A stretch of DNA of 44,781 bases from Clostridiaceae bacterium. GTDB taxonomy: Bacteria > Bacillota > Clostridia > Oscillospirales > Acutalibacteraceae. The DNA lies in assembly GCA_016290665.1 (NCBI GenBank), contig JAEEUW010000007.1, positions 1-44,781 on the forward strand, given 5' to 3'. The notes beneath the pieces are model-generated. The model searched no databases and was not told the origin of the DNA. It saw only the letters and a program-made list of their open reading frames with translations. This document shows positions 7,963-33,936 of the stretch, in pieces. Both the position numbers and the translations under genes were made by a program. How positions within the stretch are numbered: the stretch's first letter is position 1; each line of letters begins with the position of its first letter.

Positions 7963-7968
7963 GCTTTT

Positions 7969-8240
7969 AAACCGATGAGGAAGAGTGAGTAGGTCTTCTC
8001 CCTTCCCCTTCAGCGAGCCGCGGACGGTGCAAGCGCGGCGGGGAACACAAGGCCGAATGGACTTCCGAGGGCGCGCAGAAATGCGAACGCAGAGTATGCA
8101 AGACGGAGACGGCCCTCCGTTACCAAAGGTCAGCGTATGATGGTACGCGTGAGTGGGCGCGCAAGCGCCAAGCCGGGTGGCACCGCAGGAATCAACGATC
8201 TCCTGTCCCAGCAAAACGACTGGGACGGGAGTTTTTTCTT
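7969..8240 (+). ncRNA. T-box leader, tryptophan specifier (TGG), upstream of trpB2
   Basis: The leader starts with GATGAGGAAGAGTGAGTAGG, the usual 5' side of T-box stem I. The apical loop part GGTGCAAGC is at about 8017-8025. The specifier loop reads GAA-TGG-ACTTCCGAG with TGG (Trp) at 8058-8060. The T-box proper CCGGGTGGCACCGC (8173-8186) pairs with an uncharged tRNA 3' end. It precedes a 10-bp terminator stem (8201-8210 with 8221-8230, one G-U) and GTTTTTTC. Known mechanism: uncharged tRNA-Trp stabilises the antiterminator and lets transcription enter trpB2. The Trp specifier and the Trp gene downstream agree. Confidence 0.95.
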
Positions 8241-8355
8241 GTCTCGGCACCGGCGCGGCAGGCCGGCTCAGCCGCCGCAGCCGATCCGTAACCGATGATT
8301 CACGCAGAGGTTACAAAACGGTACAAAAAATAAATGAAAGAAAGGAATGACCGTG

Positions 8356-9723
8356 ATGAGCAAGATCCCGTACAAAATCTATCTGAACGAAAGCGAGATG
8401 CCGACGGCCTGGTATAACCTGCGCGCCGACATGAAAACGAAGCCCGCGCCGCTTTTGAACCCCGGCACGCTCGAGCCGATGCCGGCGAGCGACCTCGCCC
8501 CCGTGTTCTGCGACGAGCTGATTCAGCAGGAACTGGACAACGATACCCGCTTCTTCGAGATTCCGCCGGAGATCCGCGACTTCTACAAGATGTATCGCCC
8601 CTCGCCGCTGGTACGCGCCTATTGCCTTGAGGAAAAGCTGGGCACCCCGGCCAAGATCTATTACAAGTTTGAAGGCAACAACACCTCGGGCTCCCACAAG
8701 CTGAACTCCGCCATCGCGCAGGCCTACTACGCCAAGAAGCAGGGCCTCAAGGGCGTGACCACCGAGACCGGCGCCGGACAATGGGGCACCGCGCTCTCCA
8801 TGGCCTGTTCCTATTTCGGTCTGGACTGCAAGGTCTTCATGGTCAAGGTCTCCTATGAGCAAAAGCCGTTCCGCCGCGAAGTCATGCGCACCTACGGCGC
8901 GTCGGTGACCCCGTCGCCCTCGATGGAGACCAAGATCGGCCAGAAGATTCTGCACGACCATCCCGGCACCACCGGTTCGCTCGGCTGCGCCATCAGCGAG
9001 GCCGTGGAAGTTGCGACCTCCACGCCCGGCTACCGCTACGTGCTCGGCTCCGTGCTCAACCAGGTGCTGCTGCACCAGAGCGTGATCGGTCTGGAAACCA
9101 AGGCCGCGCTCGACAAATACGGCATCAAGCCCGACATCGTCATCGGCTGCGCCGGCGGCGGCTCCAACCTCGGCGGTCTGATCGCCCCGTTTATGGGCGA
9201 AAAGCTGCGCGGCGAAGCGGATTACCGCATCGTCGCCGTGGAACCGGCCTCCTGCCCCAGCTTCACCCGCGGCAAGTTCGCCTATGACTTCTGCGACACG
9301 GGCATGGTCTGCCCGCTGGCCAAGATGTATACCCTCGGCAGCAACTTCATCCCCGCGCCGAACCACGCCGGCGGCCTGCGCTACCACGGCATGAGCCCGG
9401 TGCTCTCGCAGCTCTATCACGACGGCTATATGGAAGCGATCAGCGTGAAGCAGACCGACGTCTTTGCGGCGGCGGAGCAGTTCGCCCGGGTGGAGGGCAT
9501 TTTGCCCGCGCCCGAAAGCGCCCACGCGATCAAGGCGGCCATCGACGAAGCGATGAAATGCAAGGAGACCGGCGAAGAAAAGACCATCGTCTTCGGCCTC
9601 ACCGGCACCGGCTATTTCGACATGGTGGCCTATGAGAAGTTCCACGACGGCAAGATGGACGATTACATTCCCACCGACGCCGAGCTCGAAGCGAGCTTCG
9701 CGACGCTGCCGAAAGTGGAATAA
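8356..9723 (+). CDS. trpB: TrpB2-type tryptophan synthase beta chain
   Basis: 455 aa, much longer than standard TrpB1 (about 400 aa) and with the extended N-terminus of the TrpB2 class (KIYLNESEMPTAWYN, L..P..LEPM). PLP enzyme making tryptophan from indole and serine. PLP-binding Lys lies in NNTSGSHKLNSA (about residue 113-ish), the phosphate loop is GCAGGGSNLGG, and ETGAGQWG is the family catalytic Glu region. Start ATG 8356 is chosen over ATG 8347 because AAGGA ends at 8346, nine bases before 8356. Under a Trp T-box. No trpA is adjacent, so it may salvage indole or work with a distant TrpA; TrpB2 enzymes can act without TrpA. Confidence 0.95.
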   Translation: MSKIPYKIYLNESEMPTAWYNLRADMKTKPAPLLNPGTLEPMPASDLAPVFCDELIQQELDNDTRFFEIPPEIRDFYKMYRPSPLVRAYCLEEKLGTPAKIYYKFEGNNTSGSHKLNSAIAQAYYAKKQGLKGVTTETGAGQWGTALSMACSYFGLDCKVFMVKVSYEQKPFRREVMRTYGASVTPSPSMETKIGQKILHDHPGTTGSLGCAISEAVEVATSTPGYRYVLGSVLNQVLLHQSVIGLETKAALDKYGIKPDIVIGCAGGGSNLGGLIAPFMGEKLRGEADYRIVAVEPASCPSFTRGKFAYDFCDTGMVCPLAKMYTLGSNFIPAPNHAGGLRYHGMSPVLSQLYHDGYMEAISVKQTDVFAAAEQFARVEGILPAPESAHAIKAAIDEAMKCKETGEEKTIVFGLTGTGYFDMVAYEKFHDGKMDDYIPTDAELEASFATLPKVE

Positions 9724-21254: not shown

Positions 21255-21298
21255 TGAAAAGAAAAGCGCACGGCTGTCGTCCGGACAACCGTGCGTTT
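21255..21298 (-). terminator. Terminator of the leucine T-box operon
   Basis: A 15-bp stem with G-U pairs (21264-21278 with 21283-21297) lies right after the amidohydrolase stop, followed on the minus strand by CTTTTCTTTTC. Confidence 0.8.
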
Positions 21299-21306
21299 CT
21301 TTTTTG

Positions 21307-22107
21307 TTATAGCTTGATGTCAAACATCCGCTGCGCGTTCTGATAAAAGATGTGTTCCAGTTCGTCGTCGGTGAGGCCGAGCGACAACAGGTATTCGATC
21401 TCGTCCTTCGGGTCCCACATCGGAAAATCGGAGCCGAACAGCACGCGGTCCGCGCCGTAAAGCGCGATCAGCTTTTTTGCCGTGTCGCGGCTGACCCAGT
21501 GGAAGGTGGAGGAGGCGTCGACCGTGATGTTCGGGTACTTGTGCAGCGCTTCGGCCGCCTGGGCCCAGACCGACCAGCCGCCGAAGTGGGCGCCGATCAT
21601 CTGCAAATCGGGGTAATCCTCCAGCAGGGGAATCAGGCGGTTGACGTTGGAATAATCGTAGCGGTAGTCGCCGCAGTGCAGCAGCAGCGGCAGCTTGTGT
21701 TTGGCGCACAGCGCGCAGATCAGACGCCCGCGACTGTCGTCGATCGGGAACTGCTGTACGTCGGGGTGGAGCTTGACGCCCTTGAGGCCGAGTGCTTTGA
21801 GCTCGAGGATGTCCGCTTCCATGTCGGCGCTGTCGGGGTGCAGCGTGCCAAGACCGGTGAAGCGGCCGCCGCTTTGCCGCACGTTTTCGGCAATGAAGGT
21901 GTTGATGGAATGCACCTGATGCGGTGTGGTCGCCACCGAAAAGATGACGGAATGCACCACATGGGCGCGGGCGCTGACCGCTTTCAGCGTATCCAGCCGT
22001 CCGTCGAAGTTCATGCCGATGTCATAGAACGAACCGATCCCCGCGGCGGCTTTTTGCGCGATCTTGTCGGGATAGATATGACAGTGGGTATCAATCACAG
22101 GAAACAT
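21307..22107 (-). CDS. Amidohydrolase-2 family metal-dependent hydrolase/decarboxylase
   Basis: 266 aa TIM barrel. Metal sites are intact: VIDTHCHIYPD (HxH at residues 8-10), GVKLHPD, PLLLHCGDY, GAHFGG and LFGSDFPMWDP (catalytic Asp). The family (PF04909) includes decarboxylases such as ACMSD and hydrolases of cyclic or lactone substrates, so the reaction cannot be named. Start ATG 22107 has AGGGG nine bases upstream; a GTG at 22116 overlaps that site. Third gene of the Leu T-box operon, 12 bp after the fusion gene, so it likely acts on a product of that pathway. Confidence 0.9.
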   Translation of the reverse strand: MFPVIDTHCHIYPDKIAQKAAAGIGSFYDIGMNFDGRLDTLKAVSARAHVVHSVIFSVATTPHQVHSINTFIAENVRQSGGRFTGLGTLHPDSADMEADILELKALGLKGVKLHPDVQQFPIDDSRGRLICALCAKHKLPLLLHCGDYRYDYSNVNRLIPLLEDYPDLQMIGAHFGGWSVWAQAAEALHKYPNITVDASSTFHWVSRDTAKKLIALYGADRVLFGSDFPMWDPKDEIEYLLSLGLTDDELEHIFYQNAQRMFDIKL

Positions 22108-22119
22108 TGCTTGCACCCC

Positions 22120-24636
22120 TTACGCCGTTTCAATCGCGGCGGCCTTCTCAAGCCCGTATTTCTTCACCGCGTTTTCGCGCATCTTGAATTTCTGGATCTT
22201 GCCGGCGGCATTCATCGGGAAGCCGTCCACAAAGTCGATATAGCGCGGCACCTTGTGCTTGGCCATGTGATCGAGGATATACTGCTTCATCTCCTGCTCG
22301 GTCATGCTTTCGCCCTCTTTGAGGATGATGCAGGCGCAGATCTCTTCGCCGTACTGCTCGTCGGGCACGCCGATGACCTGCACGTCCTTGACCTTGTCGT
22401 GGGTATAGATGAACTCTTCGATCTCTTTGGGATAGATGTTTTCGCCGCCGCGGATGATCATGTCCTTCAGGCGGCCCGTGATGCGGTAGTTGCCCTCCGG
22501 CGTCTTGCAGGCGAGGTCGCCCGTGTGGAGCCAGCCGTCCTTGTCGATCGCTTCGGCGGTGGCCTTCGGCATCTTGTAGTAGCCCTTCATGATGTTGTAT
22601 CCGCGCGCCACGAATTCGCCGATCTCGCCGACGGGCAGATCTTTGCCCGTTTCGGGGTCGATGATTTTGCATTCGATCTCAGGCATGGCGCGGCCCACGG
22701 TGTTGACGCGGACCTCCAGCGGGTCGTCGGTGGAGCTCATCGTGCAGCCCGGCGAGGCCTCAGTCTGGCCGTAGACGATGACGATCTCGGTCATGTGCAT
22801 CTTGTTGACCACGTCCTGCATCTTGCTGACCGGGCAGGGGGAACCCGCCATAATGCCGGTGCGCATATGGGAAAAGTCGGTCTTCGGGAAATCGGGATGC
22901 TCCAGCATGGCGATGAACATGGTGGGCACGCCGTGGAACGCCGTGATTTTCTCCTGATTGATGCAGGCCAGCGACGATTTCGGGCTGAAATAGGGGATGG
23001 GGCACAGTGTGGTGCCGTGGGTCATCGAGGCGGTCATGGCGAGTACCATGCCGAAGCAATGGAACATCGGCACCTGCACCATCATGCGGTCCGCGGTGGA
23101 AAGATCCATCCGGTCGCCGATGCATTTGCCGTCGTTGACCACGTTGTAGTGCGTCAGCATTACGCCCTTGGGGAAGCCGGTGGTGCCGGAGGTATACTGC
23201 ATGTTGCAGACGGAATGGGGGTCCACGTTGGCCGCAATGCGCCAGACCTCCTCCTTCGGCACGTTGTCGGCGCGCTCGAGCAGCTCTTCCCAGGTCAGGC
23301 AGCCCTTCTGGCGGAAGCCGACGGTGACCACGTTGCGCAAAAACGGCAGGCGTTTCGCGTGCAGCGGCTTGCCGGGCACGGTGGTTTCCAGCTCGGGACA
23401 GAGCTCCGCCATAATCTTCGAATAGTTGGAATCGCGGAAGCCCTCCACCAGCACCACGGTGTGGGTGTCGGACTGCTTGAACAGATACTCCGCTTCGTGG
23501 ATCTTGTAGGCGGTGTTGACGGTCACCAGAATGGCGCCGATCTTGGTCGTGGCCCAGAAGGTGATGTACCACTGCGGAATGTTCGTGGCCCAGATCGCCA
23601 CCTTGGCGCCGGGCTTGACGCCCACGGCGAGCAGCGCGCGGGCGCATTCGTCCACGTCGTCGCGGAACTGCTCATAGGTGCGCGTGTAATCGAGGGTGGT
23701 ATATTTGAATGCGTACTGGTCGGGGAATTCCTCCACCATCTTGTCGAGCACCTGCGAAAAGGTCTTTTCAATCAGCGCGTCCTTTTTCCAGACGTAGCGG
23801 CCCGTTTCGGCGCGGTTGAGATAAAGGTGGTGCTTCTGGCGCGAGGGCGTTTCAAAGGCGGAAAGGTAGTTTTCAAAGTGCGAAAGAATGATGTCCATTT
23901 CGGGCAGGTCGGGCATCCACTGCGGCTCCCAGTGCAGCGACAGAAAGCCGTCGTAGTTGACGGAGGACAGTGCGCGCATCACGTCGCGCAGCGGCAGGTC
24001 GCCCTCGCCGATCAGGCAGAACCGGCGGCCCTCGCCGTCGTCCTCGCTGTCGGTCAGCTCCACGTGCCTGATATAGGCGCCGAGGTTTTTGATCGTGTCT
24101 TCGGTGCTCTCGTTTGCAAGGAACATCGGCTCGTGCACCGCCCACAGCGCGCACAGCGCGTCGCTGGCGAACGATTCCAGCGTCTCGCGCAGCAGCGCCG
24201 TGTTGCAGAACAGGCCCCGGGTCTCCAACAGGATGGCGACGCCCTTTTCTTCGGCGGCGTCCACCGTCTGCGCCAGACAGCGCAGCACGTTTTCCCCGGC
24301 GTTTTCCCGGTCGCCCGAGGCGTGAACGCTGATATACGGCATACGCAGGGACGCCGCAAACGCAAGCTTTTCTTTGATTGCGGCGGCGTTGGCGTCGGCG
24401 TTTTCGTCCGACAGATCCAGATCCAGCGCAAGATTCACCGGGCGGATGTTCTTTTCCGCCAGCTCGCGCACGGTGGCGCCGATGGAGTATTTGTGAAACG
24501 GTCCCTCCCGGTCGAACAGGGCGGGATCCATGCCGTCATAAAGCTCAATGCCGGAAAAGCCGAGCTCTTCGGCAAGGGTCAGATAGTCCGCCCAGCCGTA
24601 AGACTGCCAGCCGCGGATGGAAAAGGAAAGATTCAT
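22120..24636 (-). CDS. Fusion: TIM-barrel sugar isomerase/epimerase-like domain + acyl-CoA synthetase
   Basis: 838 aa. Residues 1 to about 265 are an AP-endonuclease-2/xylose-isomerase-like TIM barrel (LAEELGFSGIELYDG, ISVHASGD, AILLETRG, YIRHVELTD, GEGDLPLRDVMRAL, DGFLSLHWEP); metal-binding Glu and His positions look kept. Residues about 290-830 are a complete AMP-binding acyl-CoA ligase: YTSGTTGFPKGVMLTH (phosphate loop), VYGQTEASPG, DGWLHTGDLA, GRLKDMIIRGGENIYPKEIE (hinge) and GKIQKFKMRE (catalytic Lys). The ligase part resembles medium/long-chain fatty acyl-CoA ligases. The frame is open throughout. It starts 2 bp after the LeuA-like stop, so it is coupled. Inferred role: making a CoA thioester of a small hydroxy-, keto- or sugar-like acid produced or isomerised nearby. 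Confidence 0.9.
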   Translation of the reverse strand: MNLSFSIRGWQSYGWADYLTLAEELGFSGIELYDGMDPALFDREGPFHKYSIGATVRELAEKNIRPVNLALDLDLSDENADANAAAIKEKLAFAASLRMPYISVHASGDRENAGENVLRCLAQTVDAAEEKGVAILLETRGLFCNTALLRETLESFASDALCALWAVHEPMFLANESTEDTIKNLGAYIRHVELTDSEDDGEGRRFCLIGEGDLPLRDVMRALSSVNYDGFLSLHWEPQWMPDLPEMDIILSHFENYLSAFETPSRQKHHLYLNRAETGRYVWKKDALIEKTFSQVLDKMVEEFPDQYAFKYTTLDYTRTYEQFRDDVDECARALLAVGVKPGAKVAIWATNIPQWYITFWATTKIGAILVTVNTAYKIHEAEYLFKQSDTHTVVLVEGFRDSNYSKIMAELCPELETTVPGKPLHAKRLPFLRNVVTVGFRQKGCLTWEELLERADNVPKEEVWRIAANVDPHSVCNMQYTSGTTGFPKGVMLTHYNVVNDGKCIGDRMDLSTADRMMVQVPMFHCFGMVLAMTASMTHGTTLCPIPYFSPKSSLACINQEKITAFHGVPTMFIAMLEHPDFPKTDFSHMRTGIMAGSPCPVSKMQDVVNKMHMTEIVIVYGQTEASPGCTMSSTDDPLEVRVNTVGRAMPEIECKIIDPETGKDLPVGEIGEFVARGYNIMKGYYKMPKATAEAIDKDGWLHTGDLACKTPEGNYRITGRLKDMIIRGGENIYPKEIEEFIYTHDKVKDVQVIGVPDEQYGEEICACIILKEGESMTEQEMKQYILDHMAKHKVPRYIDFVDGFPMNAAGKIQKFKMRENAVKKYGLEKAAAIETA

Positions 24637-24638
24637 GC

Positions 24639-26033
24639 TCAGCCCTCCTCATAGACGATCTTGTTGAGCGCGTTGAGATAGGCGCGGATGCTGGCGCCGA
24701 TGATGTCGGTGGAAATGCCGTTGCCGGAATAGAGCTTGCCGTCGGCGCGCAGACGCACGAGCGCGCTGCCCATGGCCTCCTTGCCCTCGGTGACCGCCTG
24801 AATCTGAAAATCATCCAGCTCGTAGTGGTGCCCCACGATGGATTCCACGGCAAGGAAGGCCGCGTCGATCGGGCCGTCGCCGGTGCAAAGGCCGCTGAGG
24901 CTTTCGCCGTCCTTCTGCAGCGTGATGTGCGCCGTGGCGCGGATCACGTTGCCGGAATTGATCACGTAGCTTTGCAGCACGTAGGCGGGCGGCACCTGCA
25001 TCGCCGTGGAGGCCACGATGACCTCCAGATCCTTGGCCGTCACGGTCTTCTTGACGCTGATGCGCCTGAATTCGCGGTAAACGCTGGTGTTGTCCTCGTC
25101 CGAAAGGTCATAGCCCAGCGCCTTGACCGCCTCCACCACTTGGGTGATGGAATCGTGCTCGCTCAGCTCAAAGGCGGCCGTTTCGCCCGAACCGATGTTT
25201 TCGAACGCGCTGGTCTTACTGCGCTCGGTGTGCAGAATCCAGCGGATCTGCTTGACCGCGCGCTGGAGCACGGTGAACTGCATGGAGCTCTGAATGCCGA
25301 GATCCATGCCGCGGGTGCGGAAATACTGCGAGATGGTGTCGAGGTCGGCGGCCTCGGCGCCGCTGACGGTCGTTTTGATCTCGCTGACCCCGGCGCCGAT
25401 GGCGGCGACTGCGCAGGCGTTGGCCATGGAAAAGCCGTCGTTGCACTGCATCCCGAAGCGGATCTCCCGCAGCGCGGGCACGCCCTTTTGCAGCGCGCCG
25501 ATAAAGGCGCCGAACTCCTCCGCCGTCATGATGCCCGCGTCGTCCGACACGGTGACGAGGGTCGCGCCGGCGTCTATCGCGGTCCGGATCGCGGTTTCCA
25601 GAAACTCCGGCTCGCTGCGCGAAGCGTCCTGCGCCACGAACTCCACGTCGGGGCAAAGGCTCTTTGCTTTTTTGACCAGTTTGCCGATCATGTCGAGCAC
25701 GACGGGCGGCTTCTTGTGGCAAAGGTACTCCATCTGCACCGTCGACGTGGGCACCACAAGCTGCAGTCGCGCCTTTCCGGCGTCCTGCAGGGCGGCCCAG
25801 GCGGCCTCGATTCCGGCTTCCTCCAGCGGGCAGGAGACGCACAGCACGCTGCCCTTCACGCCCGCGGCGATCGATTTGATCAGAAGGGCGTCGCGCTTCT
25901 CGCCCGAGAACACGGGCAGCTCGATGGCGGAAATGCCGAGCCTGTCGAGCAGCTTCGCAATCTCGATCTTTTCTTTGAAGCTCAGCGAGAGGGCTGTTTT
26001 GAGGGTGACGTCGGAACAGGTGACGGTTTGCAT
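24639..26033 (-). CDS. LeuA-like protein with lost catalytic motifs and intact leucine regulatory domain
   Basis: 464 aa. N-terminal HMGL/isopropylmalate-synthase barrel (about 1-270), then the LeuA allosteric dimer domain (about 340-464: INSGN.., CTGDGPIDAAFLAVE, AVTEGKEAMGSALVRLR, GNGISTDIIGASIRAYLNALN). Family catalytic motifs are changed: DTTLRDGEQ is SDVTLKTALS (7-16), the TSPxH His is Gln (PTSTVQ, 95-100), the metal pair HxHND is MQCND (195-199), and the GERxGN loop is GAEAAD. It probably cannot bind the usual metal. Start ATG 26033: AAAGG is nine bases upstream, and in-frame codons further up read through the T-box. Expressed from a Leu T-box; may act as a leucine sensor, scaffold or altered enzyme (inference). 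Confidence 0.88.
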   Translation of the reverse strand: MQTVTCSDVTLKTALSLSFKEKIEIAKLLDRLGISAIELPVFSGEKRDALLIKSIAAGVKGSVLCVSCPLEEAGIEAAWAALQDAGKARLQLVVPTSTVQMEYLCHKKPPVVLDMIGKLVKKAKSLCPDVEFVAQDASRSEPEFLETAIRTAIDAGATLVTVSDDAGIMTAEEFGAFIGALQKGVPALREIRFGMQCNDGFSMANACAVAAIGAGVSEIKTTVSGAEAADLDTISQYFRTRGMDLGIQSSMQFTVLQRAVKQIRWILHTERSKTSAFENIGSGETAAFELSEHDSITQVVEAVKALGYDLSDEDNTSVYREFRRISVKKTVTAKDLEVIVASTAMQVPPAYVLQSYVINSGNVIRATAHITLQKDGESLSGLCTGDGPIDAAFLAVESIVGHHYELDDFQIQAVTEGKEAMGSALVRLRADGKLYSGNGISTDIIGASIRAYLNALNKIVYEEG

Positions 26034-26050
26034 CTGGATCATCCTTTCGA

Positions 26051-26320
26051 AAAAAAATAGCGTCCCTGAGAAAACCTCAAGGACGAAGAAACTCCGTGGT
26101 ACCACCTTGGTTGCCGCAGAAGCGGCCGCTTTGCCGGATTCCAACAAATCCGCAGCCATGATAACGGGGCTTGCCGGGGTCGCTTACACAGCCGTGGGCG
26201 TTGGGCGATCCTGCTCGGGAATGAGACAGCGGAGGCTTCTTCCGGCCGGCTCGCACCATCCGCCGACTCTCTGAACCGCTCAAAAGCACCGCTTAATTCC
26301 GTCGCTGCAGTTAAGATATT
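26051..26320 (-). ncRNA. T-box leader, leucine specifier (CTC), upstream of the leuA-like operon
   Basis: On the minus strand, stem I has apical GATGGTGCGAGCC at about 26260. The specifier loop reads CTC-ATTCCCGAG, with CTC (Leu) at 26225-26223, in the same register as the TGG-ACTTCCGAG of the trpB2 leader. The T-box CCAAGGTGGTACCACGG (26110-26094) is followed by a terminator: CGTCCTTGAG with CTCAGGGACG (26085-26061, loop GTTTT), then a run of seven T. Uncharged tRNA-Leu should switch the operon on. Confidence 0.94.
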
Positions 26321-26326
26321 GGGGCT

Positions 26327-26355
26327 ATTTTAACACGCAAAAGCGCAAAAGTCAA
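26327..26355 (-). promoter_or_regulatory. Promoter of the leucine T-box operon
   Basis: Minus strand TTGACT (26355-26350), 17-bp spacer, TAAAAT (26332-26327), just upstream of the leader. The rest of the gap to the rodA stop (26356-26414) shows nothing clear. Confidence 0.8.
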
Positions 26356-31890: not shown

Positions 31891-32155
31891 CCGAACACGC
31901 AATATCCCAAAAGGCTGTGACAAAGACCGCTTTCGTCAGAAGCGTTTGCAGAGAGGCAGTACCACGGCTGGAAGTACCGCCAGACGCAGACAAAAGCGCA
32001 CCGCTTTGGAGCCGCCGCCGAAACAAGGCGCGCCGTGTGACCGCGTTAAGGTCGAATGAGTGCTGCGGGCAACCGCAGAAACCGGGTGGAACCGTGGAGC
32101 TTTTCGCTTCATCCCAGTGCAGATCTGCAGATGGGATGGGGCGTTTTCTATTCTC
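31891..32155 (+). ncRNA. T-box leader, threonine specifier (ACC), upstream of thrS
   Basis: Stem I spans about 31910-32025. The specifier loop reads GCG-ACC-GCTTTGGAG-like, with ACC (Thr) at 32000-32002, in the same register as the Trp and Leu leaders of this window. T-box CCGGGTGGAACCGTGG lies at 32082-32097. The terminator stem is 32105-32116 with 32132-32143 (12 bp, two G-U), followed by TTTTC. Uncharged tRNA-Thr should relieve termination and induce thrS. Confidence 0.94.
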
Positions 32156-32175: not shown

Positions 32176-33936
32176 ATGGACAAAGAATTCTTCCTCGCAA
32201 ATTACCGCCACTCCATGTCGCACATTCTGGCGAAGGCGGTCATCGAGCTTTGGGGCAAGGACGTGCAGTACGCCATCGGCCCGCAGGTGGACGACGGCTT
32301 CTACTATGACTTCAGGCTCGAGCACAACATCAACAAGGACGACTATCCCGCCATCGAAAACAAGATGCGCGAGATCCTCAAGCGCAAGGAAACGTGGGTG
32401 CGCCGCGAGATTCCCCGCGCCGAGGCGCTGGAACTGTTCAAGGGCCAGAAGTATAAGACCGAGATCATCGAGGACCTGCCCGAGGACGCGATCATTTCGA
32501 TCTATGAGACCGGCGACGACTTCGTCGACCTTTGCCGCGGCCCCCACGTGGAAAACTCGCAGGAGCTGCTTTCCGTGGCGTTCCAGATCAAGTTCGTCTC
32601 CGGCTCCTATTGGCGCGGCGACGAGCACAACGACCAGCTGCAGCGCGTCTACGTCTACGCCTTCCCCGACAAAAAGCAGCTCAAGGATCACCTCGACATG
32701 ATCAAGGAAGCCATGGAGCGCGACCACAAGAAGCTCGGCCCCGAGCTGGAGCTGTTCATGTTCCACGAGACCGCCCCGGGCATGCCTTATTGGCTGCCGA
32801 AGGGCTGGAGCCTCTATAACGCTCTGCTTTCCTATTGGCGGCGCGAGCACCTGCCCCACGGCTATCAGGAGATCAGCGCCCCGGTGCTCAACGAAAAGCA
32901 GCTCTGGGTCACGTCCGGCCACTGGGCCCACTATCAGAGCGGCATGTTCATCGCCCCCGTGGACGAGAACACCACCTACGCGATCAAGCCGATGAACTGC
33001 CCCAACTCGATCAATGTCTTCCGCAGCCGCGGCCGCAGCTACCGCGAGCTTCCGCTGCGCTATTCCCAGGTGGACGTCATTCACCGCCGCGAAAAATCGG
33101 GCGAGCTCAACGGCCTGTTCCGCGTGCAGGAATTCCACCAGGACGACGCCCACATCTTCGTGACCGAGGAGCAGATTGAAAGCGAGATCGCCGACATCAT
33201 GGACATCGCAAAGTCCATCTACGCCACCTTCGGCCTGACCTATACGGCCGAGCTTTCCACCCGTCCCGACGATTTCATGGGCGACATTGCCCTTTGGGAC
33301 AAGGCGGAGGAATCGCTCAAGAGCATCCTGACCCATAAGTTCGGCGCAGACGGTTTTGAGATCAACGAGGGCGACGGCGCGTTCTACGGCCCGAAGATCG
33401 ACCTCGGCATGCGCGACTGTCTGGGCCGCCAGTGGCAGATGGGCACGATTCAGCTCGACTTCCAGCTGCCGCTGAACTTCGGCCTCAAATATGTGGCGCC
33501 CGACGGCTCGCTCAAGCAGCCCGTCATGATTCACCGCGCCATCTTCGGCTCGTTTGAACGCTTCATCGGCATTCTGATCGAGCACTTCAAGGGTCAGTTC
33601 CCGCTGTGGCTCTCGCCGGTGCAGGTCGCCGTGGTGCCCATCCGTCCCGAGCATAACGATTACGCGAAGAAGCTGGCCGACGCGCTGTTCGAGAACGACG
33701 TCCGCTTCGAGGTCGATTACTCCGACCAGAACATGAAGAACAAGATCAAGCGCTTCAAGCTCGAGCGCGTGCCCTATGTGCTCGTGGTCGGCGACAAGGA
33801 AGCCGAAAACGAAACCGTTGCGGTCAACATCCGCGGCGTGAAGGACAACAAGTTCGGCGTGCCGTTCGCGCAGTTCCTCGAGAGCGTGAAGGCGCAGAAC
33901 AAACAGTATACGCTGGAACTGAAAGACGAATTCTGA
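32176..33936 (+). CDS. thrS: Threonyl-tRNA synthetase lacking the N-terminal TGS domain
   Basis: 586 aa, about 55 shorter than the common 640-aa form because the TGS/N1 domain is missing. It starts directly at the editing (SAD) domain with RHSMSHILAKAV (HxxxH pair at 12 and 16) and LCRGPHVEN. The class II core follows: FHETAPGMPYWLPKGW, the zinc Cys in KPMNCPNSINVF, zinc His residues in QDDAHIF and VMIHRAIFGSFERF, then the anticodon-binding domain (about 480-586: PLWLSPVQVAVVPI). ATG 32176 has AAAAAGGAG upstream and nothing upstream in frame resembles a TGS domain, so the short form is real. Controlled by a Thr T-box. Confidence 0.96.
   Translation: MDKEFFLANYRHSMSHILAKAVIELWGKDVQYAIGPQVDDGFYYDFRLEHNINKDDYPAIENKMREILKRKETWVRREIPRAEALELFKGQKYKTEIIEDLPEDAIISIYETGDDFVDLCRGPHVENSQELLSVAFQIKFVSGSYWRGDEHNDQLQRVYVYAFPDKKQLKDHLDMIKEAMERDHKKLGPELELFMFHETAPGMPYWLPKGWSLYNALLSYWRREHLPHGYQEISAPVLNEKQLWVTSGHWAHYQSGMFIAPVDENTTYAIKPMNCPNSINVFRSRGRSYRELPLRYSQVDVIHRREKSGELNGLFRVQEFHQDDAHIFVTEEQIESEIADIMDIAKSIYATFGLTYTAELSTRPDDFMGDIALWDKAEESLKSILTHKFGADGFEINEGDGAFYGPKIDLGMRDCLGRQWQMGTIQLDFQLPLNFGLKYVAPDGSLKQPVMIHRAIFGSFERFIGILIEHFKGQFPLWLSPVQVAVVPIRPEHNDYAKKLADALFENDVRFEVDYSDQNMKNKIKRFKLERVPYVLVVGDKEAENETVAVNIRGVKDNKFGVPFAQFLESVKAQNKQYTLELKDEF

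Follow-up and report, generated by a model that had tools for sequence, protein, structure and literature searches.

What a leucine-responsive operon does with a relative of LeuA, an acyl-coenzyme A (acyl-CoA) ligase and an amidohydrolase is the question raised by a locus of a Clostridiaceae bacterium of the family Acutalibacteraceae (assembly GCA_016290665.1, contig JAEEUW010000007.1). The whole stretch of DNA that was analysed, 44,781 nucleotides in length, is referred to as the window, and the operon is found on its reverse strand, to which the following coordinates belong. Transcription is predicted to start from a promoter (26327..26355; a consensus match only) composed of TTGACT, a 17-nt spacer and TAAAAT, with TG preceding the second hexamer. 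It is followed by a T-box leader RNA (26076..26314; RF00230) with the Leu specifier CUC and the T-box sequence AAGGTGGTACCACGG, and by the intrinsic terminator of this leader, identified by sequence scan as an 11-pair stem followed by CTATTTTTTT (26061..26085). Gene A (24639..26042; HMGL-like and LeuA_dimer domains) encodes a LeuA-like protein of 467 amino acids, starting with ATG at 26042 or 26033. Gene B (22120..24636; AP_endonuc_2, AMP-binding and AMP-binding_C domains) encodes an 838-amino-acid fusion of a TIM barrel and an acyl-CoA ligase, and gene C (21307..22107; Amidohydro_2 domain) an amidohydrolase-2 protein of 266 amino acids. A second intrinsic terminator found by sequence scan, a 12-pair stem followed by CTTTTCTTTT, lies 3' of gene C (21267..21295). 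The gaps are 2 bases between A and B and 12 bases between B and C, given that gene C starts with the ATG at 22107. An earlier note on this DNA had described the same frame of T-box, promoter and terminator around three genes, and its coordinates, specifier and gaps were all confirmed. The separate internal promoters that it named as evidence against an operon were not found by a promoter scan of the operon's own strand. At the level of sequence, promoter, Leu T-box, A-B-C and terminator are thus confirmed as a complete transcription unit, and the operon as real. In our view, this operon very probably serves as the leucine-specific entry into a pathway from branched-chain acids to amino acids, which replaces the leuABCD arm.

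The proposed sequence of events would be as follows. In a shortage of charged tRNA-Leu, the uncharged form would bind to the leader with its CUC specifier and stabilise the antiterminator, so that A-B-C would be transcribed. The ligase half of B would then convert isovalerate (3-methylbutyrate), ATP and CoA into isovaleryl-CoA, which VorBAG (or a PFOR paralogue), working in the carboxylating direction, would join with CO2 and reduced ferredoxin to give 2-ketoisocaproate. IlvE would aminate 2-ketoisocaproate to leucine, and leucine would feed back via A onto B. According to the accessible text of PMC7356843, where Allison 1962 and 1966 are cited, rumen bacteria carboxylate and aminate isovalerate to leucine. 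The earlier note had suggested an undescribed pathway that turns on when charged tRNA-Leu is short; the switch-on is indeed what a Leu T-box leads one to expect, but the chemistry was already known. A published assignment of these genes to the isovalerate route was not found in a literature search that was thin on subscription journals, and the accessible main text of a T-box survey (PMC2494555) does not contain 'oxidoreductase' or 'acyl-CoA' as whole words. Within the literature searched, what looks new is the set of genes, together with the threefold T-box logic and the proposed sensor derived from a dead LeuA, both described below.

The leucine control was examined by alignment of the leader to the Rfam T-box model. 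The leader matches the full model (positions 1-219) with 84.5 bits (E-value, 5e-19), and the leucine codon CUC is aligned as the specifier. Because the gathering score of the family is 93, an Rfam scan of the window at default settings remained blank; folding of the leader alone gave an uninformative z of -0.12. A title cited in PMC2494555 states that the CUC triplet confers leucine control in B. subtilis. Leucine control by CUC is also found in T-box ilv-leu operons, whereas the genes controlled here are not leuABCD. An Rfam T-box was present upstream of A in 27 of the 29 relatives scanned (14/15 and 13/14), and the specifier was CUC or CUG in 20 of 20 alignments among the matches listed (20 CUC and one CUG, n = 21, with the window included). 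For the counts of T-boxes, neighbours and domains, a set of 131 relatives with 113 A and B proteins was used. Two of its loci are the same (L034 = L112) and two pairs are near-identical (L106/L117 and L127/L128); a recount without near-identical loci, with 128 relatives and 110 A and B proteins, left the picture unchanged. In a pattern scan, the T-box core was found upstream of A in 89 of the 131 loci, the window counted, and a looser pattern raised this number to 98 (96 after merging of near-identical loci). The specifier is CUC or CUG in 96 of these 98 loci (73 by pattern, 22 by eye from the sequence, and L157 by the looser pattern), while the cores of L064 and L121 gave no readable specifier by pattern or eye. 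Since the specifier pattern accepts Leu triplets only, other specifiers would be invisible to it, and the Rfam alignments serve as the unbiased check. Leu specifiers are retained across many genera.

Protein A shares with LeuA (TIGR00973, NF002086) the fold, the domain order and the LeuA_dimer domain. Its HMGL-like domain scores 123.6 bits and its LeuA_dimer domain 108.2 bits, and the top Foldseek matches are structures of methylthioalkylmalate synthase and LeuA (structure model: pLDDT, 85.6; pTM, 0.59; relative placing of the domains uncertain). In contrast to LeuA, however, A scores far under the cut-offs of the NCBIfam equivalogs (best, 290.9 bits versus 532; TIGR00973, 258.9 versus 598.7) and is devoid of the metal ligands of the RDGEQ and HxH motifs. 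We take the catalytic metal ligands of LeuA to be the RDGEQ Asp and the two His residues of HxH. None of the 113 orthologues of A (110 distinct) has the complete set of D, H and H: the Asp is kept in 0/113, the first His in 1/113 and the second His in 1/113. No replacement residue is conserved at the RDGEQ or the first-His column, and the second-His column holds Ser in 67 of the 113 proteins. By contrast, the metal ligands are all present in three true LeuAs (L164-L166) that come from the same family of bacteria. The pattern of conservation is inverted as well. The mean pairwise identity of A proteins is 67% in the leucine domain versus 42% in the barrel, and of 6328 pairs, 6323 are more alike in the leucine domain than in the barrel (5992 of 5995 after merging of near-identical loci). 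Among the true LeuAs (n = 3), the order is reversed, with 35-44% identity in the leucine domain versus 59-67% in the barrel; L167, another type of LeuA, is excluded from these figures, and the alignment makes no use of L168, which came out in a wrong frame. A was also considered as a true, working isopropylmalate synthase, and this was rejected on account of the loss of the metal site in all 113 orthologues. Judged by its sequence, A is a catalytically dead former isopropylmalate synthase that has kept its leucine-binding domain. The name LeuA-like, given in the earlier note, is therefore justified with regard to domains and fold, but the loss of the catalytic metal site had been overlooked. 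Because the metal site is lost and the leucine domain is the best conserved part, A is most likely a leucine sensor that throttles B, which would add feedback at the protein level to the control by the T-box.

That B would be the target of such a sensor is suggested by the constant company of the two genes, which often overlap or nearly touch (101 A-B gaps readable). These gaps were read in part of the loci, B being masked by other frames elsewhere (the B of the window by a long antisense frame). Two sets of genomes were used for the neighbourhood check. In a sample of 200 genomes of the family Acutalibacteraceae, the window's genome among them, an orthologue of A, full or split by a contig end, was found in 52, including the window's own. 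It adjoins B in all 52, that is, in the window and in 51 fetched loci, some of them contig-cut. The second set consisted of the best 80 of 576 relatives (the 576 may include true LeuAs); at least the start of B follows A in 78, and in the other two the contigs stop within about 210 bases of A. The conserved co-occurrence anticipated in the earlier note was thus borne out for A and B. At the class level, A-like matches were detected in 56 of 391 genomes, and 45 of these score >=396 bits and span 19 family codes; we regard most of the matches under 396 bits as true LeuAs, and one of them (G443) as a copy that is cut off. Among the best 80 relatives, 79 are marked as metagenome assemblies and 44 come, by record title, from ruminant or horse gut; the source bacterium of the window is probably from an animal gut, too. 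The chemistry proposed here is the same as in the rumen carboxylation of isovalerate, but the T-box, the TIM-ligase fusion and the degenerate LeuA are not named in the accessible text of PMC7356843. A-B is also present in three contigs labelled Salinivirgaceae/Bacteroidetes (L127, L128 and L136), where no T-box core was found; gene transfer with altered control is possible.

Protein B is composed of a xylose-isomerase-like TIM barrel (residues 1 to ~265) and an AMP-forming acyl-CoA ligase (~281-838); the quality of its structure model is moderate (pLDDT, 76; pTM, 0.49). The core motifs of the ligase half, YTSGTTGFPKG, YGQTE, GRLKDMIIRGGEN and AGKI, are intact and invariant in 22 aligned proteins, so that B has the AMP-binding core motifs and the C-terminal Lys of an AMP-forming ligase. 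Its best NCBIfam-type matches are the ligases PRK12583 and PRK06187, both under cut-off. The mean identity of B proteins is 74% in the ligase half versus 43% in the TIM half. From the Leu specifier and the neighbouring genes, we infer that the ligase half activates isovalerate. The columns of the TIM half that we take, from the family, to be the metal quartet E-D-H-E are complete in 36 of the 113 proteins and read K-D-H-E in 32 and E-A-H-H in the window. As the quartet is incomplete in most proteins, no reaction is claimed for the TIM half.

These two halves, together with gene C, bear on the idea that A still works with an altered, metal-free chemistry, and that A, the TIM barrel and C form a new route to leucine which bypasses isovalerate. 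It is consistent with this idea that the TIM-ligase gene comes after A in every locus with enough contig left to show it, that the quartet is complete in those 36 proteins, and that each of the positions presumed to be the amidohydrolase-2 ligands of C (HxH, H, H and D) is retained by all 33 C proteins. However, none of the 113 A proteins has all three metal ligands or a conserved replacement at the RDGEQ or first-His column, the barrel of A evolves fast, and the quartet of the window reads E-A-H-H. Moreover, C is missing from 68 of the 95 loci with room for it; it lies directly 3' of B in the other 27 (window excluded; 27/92 after merging of near-identical loci). A new route of this kind is therefore very unlikely. 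Gene C was rejected as a core member of the operon on the same count, so the three-gene combination pointed out in the earlier note holds for A and B, which are constant, but not for the dispensable C.

The genes next to A-B name the rest of the proposed pathway. Neighbours were clustered in the 131 relatives, with labels taken from one representative per cluster. The representatives of VorB (528 bits; cut-off, 399) and IlvE (515 bits; cut-off, 307) exceed their cut-offs, and that of a PFOR-type oxidoreductase scores 1613 bits; the beta and gamma subunits of the 2-oxoacid oxidoreductase were assigned by Pfam domain and gene order. A further neighbour, acs2, encodes a branched acyl-CoA ligase that resembles MbcS (NF047394) but, with 425 bits, stays below the cut-off of 850. 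The 131 loci contain acs2 in 31 cases, ilvE in 25, vorA in 23, vorG in 17, PFOR in 17 and vorB in 15; only ligases labelled acs2 are counted, as ligase cluster 0 is a mixture of B and other ligases. In total, vor or ilvE genes are found near A-B in 35 of the 131 loci, vor/ilvE or PFOR in 51, and any of these or acs2 in 73. With near-identical loci merged (n = 128), the numbers are 34 for vor/ilvE, 16 for PFOR, 49 for either and 71 for any. In L137 and L146, the order is acs2, a P-loop-like protein, vorB, vorA, vorG and ilvE, followed by A-B(-C), whereas in L106, L116 and L163 A-B is followed by PFOR. A whole-genome search located vorB within 15 kb of the operon, on the same contig, in 26 of the 52 operon genomes, two of which (G145 and G178) have contig-cut pieces under the cut-off. 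In up to 17 of the 131 loci (L106, L109, L113, L116, L117, L149, L150, L163 and others), the PFOR-type gene stands 3' of B, either immediately or with C in between; it is perhaps a branched-chain-specific paralogue that replaces VOR, the branched 2-oxoacid:ferredoxin oxidoreductase.

The genome of the window itself contains a second T-box operon, on contig C15 (L169; 55.2 bits; E-value, 6e-10), with the Ile specifier AUC. It consists of genes for an HTH-cupin-ligase, a CbiA/ParA-like protein, VorB, VorA, VorG, IlvE and a possible alpha/beta hydrolase. VorB (543 bits; cut-off, 399) and IlvE (500 bits; cut-off, 307) are above their cut-offs, while the beta and gamma subunits, under theirs, were called by best match and gene order. 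Thus, the branched 2-oxoacid:ferredoxin oxidoreductase and the branched-chain aminotransferase that the pathway calls for are both encoded in the window's genome. The ligase (756 amino acids; L169 6134-8404, reverse strand) is a fusion of HTH, cupin and MbcS-like acyl-CoA ligase parts, and the HTH-cupin part may be a regulator domain fused to the enzyme that it controls. The same genes bear on the direction of the pathway. VOR-type enzymes are reversible and often oxidative, which would suit an operon that gains energy from the breakdown of dietary or leucine-derived acids, its T-box being an accident of ancestry. A Leu T-box, however, activates genes in leucine shortage, and Leu specifiers have been kept across many genera; besides, an AMP-forming ligase spends ATP, and the IlvE and VOR genes of this very genome stand behind an Ile T-box. 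Degradation is extremely unlikely on these grounds, and the catabolic reading was rejected on the T-box logic. The earlier note had left it at the making or breaking of a leucine-derived acid, which was unspecific: the VOR, IlvE and MbcS-like neighbours indicate that the acid is most probably the substrate and not the product.

In the relatives, the T-boxes of acs2 have an Ile specifier (AUC) in five of five cases among the matches listed (L097, L099, L101, L123 and L154). L101 has a second acs2 with a Val (GUC) T-box, and the same was read by eye in L123. In these two loci, every branched-chain amino acid thus has a ligase with a T-box of its own, three in all. MbcS (NF047394) likewise activates branched short-chain acids and is the best match of the two Ile/Val sister ligases tested; B differs from it in its fusion to a TIM barrel, its Leu control and its best scores with PRK12583/PRK06187. 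Both sister ligases tested (425 and 435 bits; cut-off, 850) are, by sequence score, closest to MbcS yet not MbcS proper. According to the accessible text of PMC10026030, 2-methylbutyrate and isobutyrate are the preferred substrates of the S. aureus MbcS, whereas isovalerate is a poor one, which fits a separate ligase, B, for leucine. 2-Methylbutyrate is the precursor of Ile and isobutyrate that of Val, as stated in the accessible text of PMC7356843. The window's genome also has a second acs2-like ligase gene, L172 (G000:C152:4337-6556), which is 43% identical and carries one in-frame TAA; no T-box core was found at this locus by pattern scan.

The textbook leucine genes are rare where the operon is found. 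A leuB gene over the cut-off is present in 4 of the 52 operon genomes versus 107 of the 148 others, and ilvC in 7/52 versus 103/148, while vorB over the cut-off is found in 46/52 versus 65/148 (Fisher p of 1e-16, 1e-12 and 1e-8, respectively, in tests that ignore the relatedness of the genomes). In the window's own genome, which is an 85% complete assembly, no leuB over the cut-off was found, the sole match to the aconitase family is a frame of 778 amino acids (leuD was not searched for), and the only HMGL-like match is A itself; the canonical leuABCD set was thus not found in it. The statement of the earlier note that this is no textbook pathway, without leuB, leuC or leuD, consequently stands for the neighbourhood and for what was tested of the genome, with leuD outside the search. 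The window's genome has ilvD. Among genomes of the same genus, G138 has the operon and ilvC without leuB over the cut-off, whereas G003 has leuB and ilvC without the operon; together with the ilvD of the window's genome, this pattern indicates that only the leucine arm may have been replaced in this genus. The rarity of leuB also matters for the view that the ligase feeds isovaleryl-CoA into iso-branched membrane lipids, leucine being linked to it only as the usual source of isovaleryl-CoA. Isovaleryl-CoA is the starter of iso-odd fatty acids. In S. aureus, moreover, MbcS feeds lipid synthesis, as reported in the accessible text of PMC10026030. However, the linkage to ilvE and VOR genes, the cognate Ile/Val T-boxes of the sister ligases and the rarity of leuB all point to amino acid supply, so that a role in lipid synthesis appears quite unlikely.

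Several observations weigh against the operon as the leucine entry of a pathway from branched-chain acids. With respect to control, 28 of the 131 loci lack the T-box core and 14 have a weak one (two of the 28 had <300 bases upstream), and the core is lacking in all three loci labelled Salinivirgaceae/Bacteroidetes. With respect to linkage, 58 of the 131 loci have no vor, ilvE, PFOR or acs2 in the stretch examined, and in the window's genome vor-ilvE and the operon are on different contigs. The VOR beta and gamma subunits and the MbcS-like ligases score under the NCBIfam cut-offs. The comparison of genomes, in which relatedness was disregarded, is weakened by the frequency of vorB without the operon (65/148) and by six of the 52 operon genomes that have no vorB over the cut-off; in three of these (G145, G178 and G179) vorB is present in split pieces, one has a PFOR after C (G166), and G037 and G062 are unexplained. 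A missing leuB is not by itself a sign of the pathway, as 41 of the 148 non-operon genomes have none either. Some divergent leuB genes may have been overlooked by the strict cut-off, which the control exceeded in only 9 of 14 known genomes, and genes absent from the 85% complete assembly of the window's genome may be gaps. Finally, the role of A is one that we infer, isovalerate is a predicted substrate of B, and the proposed pathway assigns no role to the TIM domain and C.

If the operons are what they appear to be, they would give the known rumen chemistry from isovalerate to leucine its candidate genes, with the T-box specifier as a label of which ligase serves which amino acid. A genome would then predict the microbial consumers of isovalerate, 2-methylbutyrate and isobutyrate, which is of relevance for rumen fibre digestion, isoacid feed additives and cross-feeding in the gut. 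Protein A would also be a clear-cut example of how a metabolic enzyme loses catalysis and apparently survives as an allosteric sensor. We lean slightly towards a still wider interpretation, in which a catalytically dead isopropylmalate synthase lives on as a leucine sensor in its own right, and the feedback domain of the lost pathway has been re-wired onto the ligase of its replacement. Together with the HTH-cupin sister ligases under Ile/Val T-boxes, this would amount to a doubly controlled synthesis of branched-chain amino acids from volatile fatty acids, governed by tRNA charging and end-product binding, in gut Clostridia and some Bacteroidetes.

Several further features were observed in the window and in related loci. 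A protein of 220-240 amino acids with weak CbiA/ParA matches under the Pfam cut-offs is encoded at L169 5387-6106 (reverse strand) and L160 1222-1881 (forward strand); this CbiA/ParA-like (P-loop-like) protein lies between acs2 and vorB in many loci, and its cluster occurs in 24 of the 131. In relative L099, positions 146-222 of the reverse strand match the Gut-1 small RNA (RF01706; 60.2 bits; gathering score, 50). Directly after the operon, a perfect promoter match, TTGACA-17-TATAAT, is found at 21235-21207 of the window (reverse strand), and a small predicted protein gene lies just downstream of it (21167-20844, reverse strand). Two more T-boxes are present on the forward strand of the window. 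One of them (31908-32119; 63.0 bits) is located upstream of a gene ending at 33936, which we take from its sequence to be threonyl-tRNA-synthetase-like, and the other (7966-8213; 85.3 bits) precedes a presumably TrpB2-like gene, likewise named by its sequence (8347-9723, forward strand).

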